A DNA stretch of 64,000 nt from Fibrobacter sp. UWH4. GTDB taxonomy: Bacteria > Fibrobacterota > Fibrobacteria > Fibrobacterales > Fibrobacteraceae. Position 1 is the stretch's first letter. Each line of letters starts with the position of its first letter. The stretch is taken from the NCBI RefSeq assembly GCF_900142475.1, contig NZ_FRAY01000003.1:434001-498000 (forward strand). The letters run 5' to 3'. The notes beneath the pieces were generated by a model that did not search any database, had not been told where the DNA came from, and saw only the letters and a list, made by a program, of their open reading frames with translations. Of the stretch, positions 34,901 to 61,650 are shown in pieces. Made by a program: the position numbers and the translations under genes.

Positions 34901-35014
34901 TTAACCTTCCTTTTAAGGTAATTAGATTTTTACGCATCAAATATAGCACTTTTTCGTGTTTCAGACAATGAAAAAACGCCCCAAAAAGCCGAAAAACGGA
35001 AAAAATAAGCTACA

Positions 35015-35464
35015 CTACTTCCCTTTTAACAACCAACCGCGGTAGTAAGTCAACGAAGAAAACCTGTATTTGGGTGGCAAAGGCTCTTTTTTCAAGCCCT
35101 CTATAAAATCATCAATATACTTTTGAAATTTTTCCACAATAAATATATAGCGCTTCATGATTTCCGTATGTTCTCGTGAATCGATATGCGCAGGCATTCC
35201 AATTTCATCATCATTAAAAATAATGACACTTTTACTAAAATCTAGCCCAGACGATGTCCTTTTGGAATTTTCACTTTCAAATTTATATGCATGTGTATGC
35301 TGGATATTCGACCTAAATGGAATAGCAAATCTAAAGGAACGGTATTCCACTAGCAACACCAAATAAGGGCGGTTTTCCTTCACAAGAATTTCGGTATTAT
35401 CTGCATAACGCTCGTAAAACAACGGCGATAGCAGCATAACCTTGGGTATGTTTTCTTTTTTCAT
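35015..35464 (-). CDS. Type III toxin-antitoxin endoribonuclease toxin (CptN/TenpN-like)
   Basis: A ~149-residue protein predicted to cut its own antitoxin RNA precursor and, when free, cellular mRNA. Features shared with CptN/TenpN/ToxN-type toxins as I know them: L-F-Y-E-R-Y near the start, N-R-P-Y-L-V-L-L, F-A-I-P-F-R-S-N-I-Q-H, and G-L-D-F-S-K-S-V-I-I. The helical C-terminal half has F-I-V-E-K-F-Q-K-Y-I-D-D. The ATG at 35464 is chosen: AAAAAGGA lies five to six bases upstream, directly after the antitoxin terminator; a TTG at 35482 is inside that terminator. Promoter, repeats, terminator and toxin are in the classical type III order. The exact family (CptN or TenpN) is not settled. Confidence 0.8.
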   Translation of the reverse strand: MKKENIPKVMLLSPLFYERYADNTEILVKENRPYLVLLVEYRSFRFAIPFRSNIQHTHAYKFESENSKRTSSGLDFSKSVIIFNDDEIGMPAHIDSREHTEIMKRYIFIVEKFQKYIDDFIEGLKKEPLPPKYRFSSLTYYRGWLLKGK

Positions 35465-35485
35465 GTTTTCCTTTTTTGACAAAAA

Positions 35486-35617
35486 AAGAAGCCGCTTTTA
35501 TATGGATATATAAAAACGACTTCATCTAATGAGCTTTCTTTTTTTCTCAGGTGGTCGCTCTACCACCCTGTCATCATTTCGAGCTTTCTTTTTTTCTCAG
35601 GTGGATGCTCTGCCACC
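35486..35617 (-). ncRNA. Type III antitoxin RNA: two 50-nt pseudoknot repeats plus terminator
   Basis: Minus-strand transcript with two tandem 50-nt repeats (35581-35620 plus flank, and 35531-35580). Each has a stem GGTGG / CCACC, a loop containing GAGC, an A-rich stretch GAGAAAAAAAGAAA, then GCTC, which can pair with the loop to form an H-type pseudoknot, the fold known for type III antitoxins. The stem bases differ between copies (loop-closing T-A versus C..T) while pairing is kept. Then follows hairpin GAAGTCG...CGGCTTC with seven T's (35481-35524), which limits toxin expression relative to the RNA. The A-run probably holds the toxin cleavage site. Confidence 0.78.
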
Positions 35618-35623
35618 CTGTCT

Positions 35624-35651
35624 ATTATAAATATACATTATTCTTCGACAA
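35624..35651 (-). promoter_or_regulatory. Promoter of the type III toxin-antitoxin locus
   Basis: On the minus strand TTGTCG (35646-35651), 16 bases, TATAAT (35624-35629), then the first repeat after about 5 bases. Confidence 0.75.
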
Positions 35652-35744
35652 AAAGCAAGCTTTTTCCAAGTTAGCGCTCGAATATATTTAAAATAGCAGG
35701 GGAAAGCTTCCGCCTTAAAGCGAACTGTTTTGCCACTAATTTGT

Positions 35745-35772
35745 CATGCCCGACTTGATCGGGCATCTCCTT
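35745..35772. repeat. Dispersed palindromic repeat (GTCATGCCCGAC...)
   Basis: GCCCGA-CTTGA-TCGGGC within GTCATGCCCGACTTGATCGG and the next eight bases, a common type of intergenic palindrome. Its translation (M-P-D-L-I-G-H-L) is a known spurious motif. Confidence 0.65.
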
Positions 35773-35923
35773 TTCCATCTGGAAAAGGTGCGTTTAGCAA
35801 ACAGCGCTCCAAGTAAAATCAGGTGGCGCTTATGCAGCTACTTTTTGATTTTCTGTTCCCCATATATGTCGGACCAAAAGAGAATGGATTTAGGCATAAT
35901 TAATACTTCTTTAACAGTGACTT

Positions 35924-36139
35924 CTAAAAAAAATTCTTTACTTCTTGACTAGGATTGCTTATACGATCTAAATTAAAACCATTTGCTACAAGTAAATTTG
36001 AATACTCCGTTGCTTGTGCTACCGAAGTTTGAACCATTGCTTGGCAGCCGCCACCAAAGGCATCTTCGTAAGCAATAACAGGATATGCTGGCAAATATTT
36101 ATTTGCCAAGGCACAATTAACAAGCCAAAAACCCTTCAA
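35924..36139 (-). pseudogene. Possible gene fragment, 71 codons
   Basis: The frame reads as ordinary-looking protein (A-L-A-N-K-Y-L-P-A-Y-P-V-I-A-Y-E-D-A-F-G-G-G-C, then Q-A-T-E-Y-S-N-L-L-V-A-N-G-F) with no ATG start (TTG only), no ribosome-binding site and no recognised domain. It could be the tail of a lost gene or a chance frame. Confidence 0.25.
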
Positions 36140-36181
36140 AAAGATTACTTTTCGTTTCGGGTTCTTAAGGGCAGAGTCCTA

Positions 36182-36218
36182 TTGACATATCATAATTATG
36201 ATATTATATTATCATAAT
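36182..36218 (+). promoter_or_regulatory. Promoter and operator of the first Phd/ParE pair
   Basis: TTGACA (36182-36187), 17 bases, TATATT (36205-36210). The perfect 16-base palindrome TATCATAATTATGATA (36189-36204) fills the spacer and a further ATCATAAT half-site follows the -10, as expected for autorepression by the antitoxin. GGAGG lies before the ATG. Confidence 0.75.
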
Positions 36219-36231
36219 AAAGGAGGCTATC

Positions 36232-36489
36232 ATGCCGAATATCCGTCCAATTTCAGACTTGCGCAACAACTTCACGAGCGTCGCGGAAACCGTACACAAG
36301 TACGACGAGCCCATGTATTTGACCAAGAATGGCGTGGGCGACATGGTCGTGATGTCCATCGAATGCTACGAAAAGCAGATGGCCCAGCTGGAACTTTATT
36401 CAAAACTTGCCGAAGCCATTTCCGAAGTGGAACGCGGTGCGGAATGCGCCGATGCCGAAAAATTCTTGAAGGATTTAATGAATGGCTAA
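36232..36489 (+). CDS. Phd/YefM-family antitoxin
   Basis: An 85-residue antitoxin. The N-terminal part, I-R-P-I-S-D-L-R-N-N-F, then Y-D-E-P-M-Y-L-T-K-N-G-V-G-D-M-V-V-M-S, is the Phd/YefM DNA-binding fold; the acidic C-terminal tail should wrap the toxin. It overlaps the downstream toxin gene by 8 bases. It probably binds the palindrome in its own promoter. Similar in plan, but not in sequence detail, to the antitoxin at 38460-38735. Confidence 0.88.
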   Translation: MPNIRPISDLRNNFTSVAETVHKYDEPMYLTKNGVGDMVVMSIECYEKQMAQLELYSKLAEAISEVERGAECADAEKFLKDLMNG

Positions 36490-36799
36490 AAAGTACGAAG
36501 TCGTTATCACGCCTTCGGCGCAAAAAGACCTCAACGAAATCAAATCATATTTTACAAACGTTCTCAAGACTTCATCAAATTCAATCTTCGAGAAGTTTCT
36601 TGAACAGGTCAGGCTGTTGAAAGCGCATCCGTTCACCTATCCCGTCCACCAAGATCCGCTGCTGAAACTCGTCGGCTACAGGGTCATTCCCATTGACAAC
36701 TACCTGATGTTTTACATGGTCAGGGGCAATGTCGTTCAAATCCATCGATTCCTTTACGGCAAACGGAACTACCTACAGTTACTAGGCATGGACACGTGA
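36482..36799 (+). CDS. ParE/RelE-superfamily toxin
   Basis: A 105-residue toxin. It starts Y-E-V-V-I-T-P-S-A-Q-K-D-L-N-E-I, contains L-V-G-Y-R-V-I-P-I-D-N-Y-L-M-F-Y-M-V and ends with I-H-R-F-L-Y-G-K-R-N-Y, the standard ParE/RelE fold order. Whether it poisons gyrase (ParE) or cuts mRNA (RelE) cannot be told; the late H-R-F-L-Y-G-K-R-N-Y is common in both groups. Overlap with the antitoxin gene implies coupled translation. Confidence 0.87.
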   Translation: MAKKYEVVITPSAQKDLNEIKSYFTNVLKTSSNSIFEKFLEQVRLLKAHPFTYPVHQDPLLKLVGYRVIPIDNYLMFYMVRGNVVQIHRFLYGKRNYLQLLGMDT

Positions 36800-36816
36800 T
36801 ATCTTTGTCCGCCTGC

Positions 36817-38428: not shown

Positions 38429-38459
38429 TAATACCGAATTCAGTCTTACGCGAGGTTTT

Positions 38460-38735
38460 ATGCCGACCTATAAAAATATCAAGCCGATTTCTTACATTAA
38501 GGCAAACGCTGCAAAAGTGCTAGACCATGTAAATGACACTCGTGCACCCTACATCGTCACGCAAAACGGTGAAGCTCGCGGCGTAATCCTCGATACCGAG
38601 ACATTCCAAATGATGCAGGACGGCTTAAAGTTGTTTAAGCTTTTCGCTCAAAGCGAAGCCGAATTTTCAAAAGGAAAAACAATCAATCAAAAAGACCTCT
38701 TTGATTCCTTGGAGAAAGAACTAAATGCCCTCTAA
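38460..38735 (+). CDS. Phd/YefM-family antitoxin (second pair)
   Basis: A 91-residue antitoxin with I-K-P-I-S-Y-I-K-A-N-A-A-K-V-L-D and the T-Q-N-G-E-A-R-G-V-I-L-D turn of the Phd/YefM fold, followed by a helical acidic tail. The ATG at 38460 follows CGAGG; the 20 codons upstream cover the promoter and are excluded. It overlaps the toxin start by 11 bases. Presumed autorepressor and neutraliser of the next gene product. Confidence 0.87.
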   Translation: MPTYKNIKPISYIKANAAKVLDHVNDTRAPYIVTQNGEARGVILDTETFQMMQDGLKLFKLFAQSEAEFSKGKTINQKDLFDSLEKELNAL

Positions 38736-39063
38736 GAAAATCATTGTAGAATGGTCCGAATCGGCATCTCTCGACTTGAAGTCCATCATCTTGCATATTG
38801 CAACAAGTAGCCCCAAAAACGCAAAAGACTCGCTTGCTAGAATAAAAAAGGAATGCCAAGTCCTTGAAAAGTTTCCAGATTTGGGCAAAATTCCTGCGGA
38901 ATTAGAATATTTGCAAATCAACGGATTCCGGGAACTCGTTGTAAGCCCCTGGAGAATTTTTTATCGCAAAGAAGAAAACCGCGTCAAAGTCTTGGCTGTT
39001 GTCGATTCAAGACGCGATCTAGATGACGCCCTCTGGACACGTATGATGTTCCCGATTGTATAG
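38725..39063 (+). CDS. ParE/RelE-superfamily toxin (second pair)
   Basis: A 112-residue toxin: V-E-W-S-E-S-A-S-L-D-L-K-S-I near the start, F-P-D-L-G-K-I-P-A-E-L, F-R-E-L-V-V-S-P-W-R-I-F-Y-R in the core, and V-L-A-V-V-D-S-R-R-D-L late, the ParE-like plan. The toxin ends 2 bases before the convergent ABC ATPase gene. It differs clearly from the toxin at 36482, so the two pairs are not a recent duplication. Confidence 0.87.
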   Translation: MPSKKIIVEWSESASLDLKSIILHIATSSPKNAKDSLARIKKECQVLEKFPDLGKIPAELEYLQINGFRELVVSPWRIFYRKEENRVKVLAVVDSRRDLDDALWTRMMFPIV

Positions 39064-61459: not shown

Positions 61460-61470
61460 TTCGCCCCACG

Positions 61471-61650
61471 TCATCCCTGACTGAGCTCGCGCACCTCACG
61501 TCATCCTCGACTGAGCTCGCGCACCTCACGTCATCCTCGACTGAGCTCGCGCACCTCACGTCATCCTCGACTGAGCCCGCGCATCTTATGTCATCCTCGA
61601 GTGAGCTCGCGCACCTCACGTCATCCTCGACTGAGCTCCGCGAAGGAGGG
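61471..61650. repeat. 30-bp tandem repeat, six units
   Basis: Units begin at 61471, 61501, 61531, 61561, 61591 and 61621, exactly 30 bases apart, each TCATCCTCGACTGAGCTCGC plus GCACCTCACG with few changes. There are no spacers, so it is not a CRISPR array. The unit resembles the common intergenic 'TCATCCTCGAC...' repeat, amplified in tandem between argH and its terminator. Confidence 0.85.

Follow-up and report, generated by a model that had tools for sequence, protein, structure and literature searches.

The window, the whole 64,000-nucleotide stretch of Fibrobacter sp. UWH4 DNA analysed here, most probably carries a chromosomal type III toxin-antitoxin (TA) module of the TenpIN family, and we put the probability that the locus is such a module and works as proposed below at about 95%. 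The type III class assigned in an initial annotation of this DNA was borne out by the family profile and predicted fold of the toxin, by the gene order and by covariation in the repeats, and the locus was found to lie in an island that has an empty site in relatives. With high confidence, the locus itself belongs to a known kind, TenpIN.

Results

Architecture of the locus

On the minus strand, the locus consists of a promoter, two 50-nt repeats, a 16-bp terminator, a ribosome-binding site (RBS) and a 149-codon open reading frame (ORF) (Table 1). Type III systems have been defined by tandem nucleotide repeats, followed by a Rho-independent terminator and then by a toxin gene (PMC5086642), and tandem repeats, a Rho-independent terminator and a toxin gene were all found here. 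Much of this arrangement had been described in the initial annotation, and our results agreed with it. The two direct repeats, detected at 35531-35572 and 35581-35622, start 50 nt apart and are 93% identical over 42 nt; the intrinsic terminator is present; an RBS-like AAGGAAA lies upstream of the toxin ORF; and this ORF encodes both the NRPY and the FAIPFRS motifs.

Table 1. Features of the TenpIN locus in the window and of 6A/TenpI units found apart from TenpN. S1, first stem of the predicted pseudoknot; S2, loop-to-tail stem.
Feature	Location	Strand	Basis or remarks
TenpN-family toxin gene, 149 aa, predicted endoribonuclease	35015..35464	-	NF047358; AlphaFold2 model
Intrinsic terminator between antitoxin and toxin, 16-bp stem, 4-nt loop, T run	35488..35523	-	
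Predicted TenpI antitoxin repeat 2, 50 nt, S1 GGGTGG/CCACCT, S2 GAGC/GCTC	35524..35573	-	RF02925, 32.7 bits, E=0.00047
Predicted TenpI antitoxin repeat 1, 50 nt, S1 GGGTGG/CCACCT, S2 GAGC/GCTC	35574..35623	-	RF02925, 28.6 bits, E=0.0056
Likely -10 box TATATT	35630..35635	-	TATATT in 28/28 Fibrobacter loci listed
Likely -35 box TTGCTT	35653..35658	-	aligned with TTGACT/TTGCTT in many relatives
~1.8-kb island with TenpIN and a Phd/YefM-ParE type II pair, approximate limits	35013..36815	.	empty site in relatives
Toxin-less 6A/TenpI units	L137:2365-2415, L140:1551-1601, L141:5571-5662, L144:851-903		viral contigs
Toxin-less 6A/TenpI units	L145:1384-1434, L151:947-997, L189:1487-1537		viral contigs
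Two tandem 6A units and terminator	L032:1501-1601	minus	G008, Fibrobacterota-phylum genome, no TenpN detected

The toxin belongs to the TenpIN family

The toxin matched the NCBIfam equivalog model NF047358 (TenpIN) with an E-value of 1.8e-36 and 125.5 bits, over the cut-off of 90, which settles on one of the four family names suggested in the initial annotation. Searches of Pfam and PADLOC and a sequence search of the PDB gave no relevant match, and a profile search of the PDB returned chance matches only. Since Pfam, PADLOC and the PDB sequence search were silent, the toxin assignment stands on one NCBIfam model together with the predicted fold and the arrangement of the locus.

The structure of the toxin was modelled with AlphaFold2 (pLDDT 86, pTM 0.84). 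Comparison of this model with the PDB by Foldseek gave AbiQ as the top match (probability 1.00), and the five best matches by VIA-align were ToxN-Bt (Z 10.8), AbiQ (10.7), CptN (9.8), ToxN-Ec (9.6) and ToxN-Pa (9.5), with chains 4ato, 4glk, 4rmo, 7d8o and 2xd0 giving rmsd values of 3.2-3.6 over 126-136 of the 149 residues. The predicted fold thus matches five solved type III toxins, above every MazF/Kid protein (Z of 6.4 or less), as the proposed class had led one to expect. The model indicates a ToxN/AbiQ/CptN fold, a Z score near 10 denoting a shared fold and not an activity; endoribonuclease activity of TenpN is predicted by likeness to studied relatives.

The nearness of the predicted fold to AbiQ, ToxN and CptN, as well as the resemblance to CptI of an array that has two units and an A-rich loop 2 (PMC5086642), would also suit a member of CptIN or of ToxIN/AbiQ. 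However, the toxin is only 7-13% identical to the solved ToxN, AbiQ and CptN chains, and TenpIN was the sole profile returned, over its cut-off, when NCBIfam, a library in which the presence of CptN and ToxN profiles was not established, was searched to E=1. We consider membership of these other families highly unlikely, and assign the toxin to TenpIN.

The repeats are predicted to fold as H-type pseudoknots

According to the initial annotation, each repeat pairs GGTGG with CCACC and then GAGC in the loop with GCTC in the tail. Both pairs of motifs were found in each unit, both units containing GACAGGGTGG-(C/T)AGAGC-(AT/GA)-CCACCTGAGAAAAAAAGAAAGCTC, and folding without pseudoknots recovered S1 in both. 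The same RNA precedes TenpN homologues of Fibrobacter, usually as two units among the loci that we read. The number of units ranged from one to three in Fibrobacter loci (three in L031 and one in L019; L002, L003 and L008 were also noted), and the two units of one locus can differ in S2, e.g. GGGT/GCCC and GAGC/GCTC.

We aligned 30 distinct units from Fibrobacter relatives and compared the columns of S1 (4-9 with 19-24) and S2 (12-15 with 41-44) with 500 shuffles and with a control in which the partners were slid. Standard pairs made up 99.0% of cells (shuffle mean 89.0), 40 cells were changed on both sides (shuffle mean 15.3) and the covariation score was 0.370 (shuffle mean 0.169), with none of the 500 shuffles reaching any of these values; kinship among the sequences inflates such counts, yet the slid control, which retains this kinship, clearly failed (27-55% paired). 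Counting the pairs that had a double change gave 4 against a shuffle mean of 2.9, a value not above the shuffles (100 of 500 reached it). Double-sided change was seen in three of the four S2 pairs and in one S1 pair; support is strongest in the loop-to-tail stem, for which six forms were found (GAGC/GCTC, GACC/GGTC, GGCC/GGCC, GGTC/GACC, GAGT/ACTC and GGGT/GCCC). These compensatory changes support the predicted H-type pseudoknot in the repeat unit.

Repeats placed directly upstream of a terminator and a gene might instead be a cis-regulatory leader or attenuator of that gene and not an antitoxin. Tandem complete pseudoknots before TenpN, along with the toxin-less copies found elsewhere (see below), are more in keeping with an RNA that acts in trans than with a leader, and we give the leader hardly any weight; the repeats are most readily read as the antitoxin.

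A probable conserved promoter and a terminator flank the repeats

The promoter of the initial annotation, TTGTCG/TATAAT, was the part that we dropped. It matches at 10 of 12 positions, but such sites occur in this DNA at the chance rate (2 found versus 2.0 expected), and it is little conserved, its TATAAT (35629-35624) being present only in the window and in one near-identical relative among 28 loci. We replaced it with the conserved TTGCTT-17-TATATT. The TATATT box lies 15-20 nt upstream of AGGG in all of the 28 Fibrobacter loci listed; the conserved boxes of these loci, aligned by eye, are TTGCTT or TTGACT and TATATT, and the spacer in the window is 17 nt. Transcription starting ~7 nt past TATATT would open the RNA at repeat 1.

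The terminator has a folding energy of -18.3 kcal/mol (z = -8.0), and a terminator-like inverted repeat occupies the same position in the loci of relatives. In the relatives' loci that were read, promoter, repeats, terminator and toxin follow one another in the same order as here.

Two units of about 50 nt are typical of TenpIN

The initial annotation had regarded the antitoxin as having only two repeats and an unusually long unit; both features proved to be usual for TenpIN. We surveyed 87 TenpN loci, taken from viral contigs and from genomes other than this one; 64 of them had a 41-57-nt tandem repeat within 450 nt upstream, versus 2 of 76 control stretches. The periods ranged from 41 to 57 nt and were mostly 50-51 nt, a peak on which the many Fibrobacter loci in the set weigh, and the median was 1.9 copies. 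This survey indicates that a two-unit antitoxin of ~50 nt per unit is typical for TenpIN.

Among 168 genomes of the phylum Fibrobacterota that were searched, TenpIN was detected in 37, of which 35 belong to Fibrobacter; thus, it is frequent but patchy in this genus. The initial annotation held that type III systems are little described in this phylum; no paper within reach of our literature search treated them in Fibrobacter, although TenpIN is frequent there.

TenpIN lies on a small TA island

In four relatives (L158, L160, L176 and L180), ~12 unmatched bp stand in place of 1.8 kb, and homology to window positions 33.96-35.01 kb joins homology from 36.82 kb onward. This near-clean empty site shows that TenpIN rides on a ~1.8-kb island of low GC content (40%, versus 52% for the window), which is an acquired or often-lost TA segment. 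The island lies between a gene that we take, from its sequence, to be mdh and a 308-codon ORF that had no Pfam match. Among the genomes searched, G061 shares this location, with the end of TenpN ~140 bases before its mdh start, and its locus is near-identical to that of the window.

Some relatives carry copies broken by stop codons or truncations. Decay therefore does occur in Fibrobacter, and the window locus could be a decayed or silent relic with toxin and repeats kept by chance. We judge this improbable, because in the window copy the ORF is intact, both units can pair at S1 and S2, and the terminator and the conserved promoter are present, and because the near-identical locus is present in G061. 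An intact TenpIN module remains the preferred reading.

A Phd/YefM antitoxin and ParE toxin pair (window 36232-36799, plus strand) lies within the island, and a second Phd/YefM-ParE pair (38457-39063, plus strand) lies just beyond it, giving three TA modules in ~4 kb. The window also holds a tandem array at 61467-61638, with a 30-bp unit, 5.7 copies and 91% matches.

The Rfam 6A RNA probably corresponds to a large clade of TenpI

Each of the two window units aligns from end to end across the 52-position model of the 6A RNA (RF02925), including the loop GUAGAGC and the tail AAAAGAAAGCUC that make up S2, at scores (Table 1) below the gathering score of 41.2. The structure line of RF02925 contains S1 only, and the Rfam output gives no function. 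The 6A RNA reportedly stems from Weinberg 2017, its likely source; RF02925 was named in no paper within reach of our literature search, outside of which lay the likely sources (Weinberg 2017 and Blower 2012 NAR).

A 6A match above gathering was found just upstream of TenpN in 13 of 20 TenpN-first loci scanned, a set that was picked after viewing the repeats, with 12 loci looking 6A-like and eight being of other types. All 12 6A-like loci were positive, as was one of the eight others (L097, Fusobacterium). The remaining seven were negative, indicating that 6A represents one large clade of TenpI and not all TenpI. The 6A-TenpN loci came from metagenome-assembled genomes and isolates labelled Clostridia, Lachnospiraceae, Fusobacterium, Spirochaetes and Proteobacteria.

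In the reverse test, a DNA pattern made from 6A, blind to the toxin, gave 15 stretches in viral contigs, and a protein over the TenpIN cut-off follows seven of them. An S1 run of at least five pairs, which the pattern did not demand, was present in 13 of the 15 (L146 among them being doubtful); the run was four pairs in L142 and two in L138. A control pattern with S2 changed to GAAC/GTTC gave 14 stretches, with an S1-like stem only in L189, L191 and L193, and L189 alone scored as 6A among the nine control stretches that were scanned. This shows that such DNA patterns bring many chance hits. A third toxin-blind DNA pattern gave no match. Altogether, the presence of 6A at 13 of 20 TenpN loci and of TenpN after seven of the 15 reverse hits indicates that one TenpI clade is 6A, and the conclusion that RF02925 serves as TenpI antitoxin in a large clade of type III TA systems is well supported.

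Toxin-less copies occur in viral contigs

In six viral records that gave other hits of the reverse test (L137, L140, L141, L144, L145 and L151), which may be fragments, TenpN was absent across the whole record; five of these toxin-less copies scored above the 6A gathering score and L141 just below it. A seventh, in L189, has two units adjoining a tRNA gene; here, the absence of the toxin was judged only from a motif search covering the fetched stretch. In L140 and L141, a terminator-like hairpin comes after two units, which lie between repressor and integrase genes in the former and downstream of the phage genes for ribonucleotide reductase and dUTPase in the latter. The copy in L145 is near a holin gene, and that in L137 adjoins weakly matched head-tail genes. 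A BLASTN search of named phage records with two TenpI arrays gave no match; thus, toxin-less arrays were seen here only in IMG/VR contigs and one genome (Table 1).

Wild-type phage PhiTE carries 1.5 pseudo-ToxI repeats, which encode no complete unit, and their expansion allows escape from ToxIN (PMC3475682). By analogy, the complete toxin-less TenpI units in phage contigs could be ready-made decoys, standing in nature for what the pseudo-ToxI of PhiTE became under selection in the laboratory. The combined proposal, that 6A is the TenpI of a large clade and that the toxin-less phage arrays are RNA decoys against host TenpN, is tentative, and we put its chances somewhat below even.

Discussion

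The mechanism that we propose is modelled on work on ToxIN, CptIN and TenpIN (PMC5086642, PMC4627078, PMC5377504), and RNase activity, processing, neutralisation and phage defence are taken by analogy from these studied relatives. A single promoter would give an RNA of two 50-nt units, and the terminator ahead of the toxin gene would leave most transcripts as antitoxin, with a minority reading through to form toxin mRNA. Each unit would fold as an H-type pseudoknot, with S1 formed by GGGUGG and CCACCU, S2 by GAGC of the S1 loop and GCUC of the tail, and an A-rich loop 2. The motif GATGA stands at the boundary between the units and again behind the last one, and probably marks the cutting region: TenpN would cut the precursor near this conserved junction (GAUGA), and the resulting pseudoknots would keep TenpN inactive. 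The complexes of relatives differ in stoichiometry, CptIN being a tetramer and ToxIN a hexamer. A failing supply of antitoxin, for instance when a phage shuts off host transcription or when the island is lost, would free TenpN, which would then cleave cellular RNA and stop growth, resulting in abortive infection and/or island maintenance.

The window locus falls within a well-supported TenpIN clade of rumen and gut Fibrobacter, and the six loop-to-tail stem versions of this clade make antitoxin specificity testable through stem swaps. The main use of the locus lies in the assignment of 6A to TenpI, by which a catalogued RNA family gains a concrete proposed function, and in the lead on phage-borne toxin-less antitoxins, which hint where RNA-based counter-defence may be sought.

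Among known systems, ToxIN (Pectobacterium, Bacillus, E. coli) and AbiQ share with the window locus the toxin fold (Z 9.5-10.8) and a pseudoknot RNA antitoxin, but their toxins belong to another family and their units are shorter, at 34-36 nt for ToxI-Pa, ToxI-Bt and antiQ, which have 2.8-5.5 copies (PMC5086642), versus 50 nt in the window. CptIN of Eubacterium rectale (4RMO) is similar in its type III order and in its pseudoknot with a long A-rich loop 2 (PMC5086642, PMC4627078), as well as in its toxin fold (Z 9.8), and differs in its toxin family, with 13% identity over the aligned part. TenpIN of Photorhabdus luminescens shares the toxin profile NF047358, the gene order, tandem antitoxin repeats and a terminator before the toxin, a likeness at the level of toxin profile and locus layout; the window locus differs in its Fibrobacter host and in a 50-nt unit that resembles Rfam 6A. 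The Photorhabdus system has been shown to abort phages in both E. coli and Pectobacterium (PMC5377504, PMC5086642).
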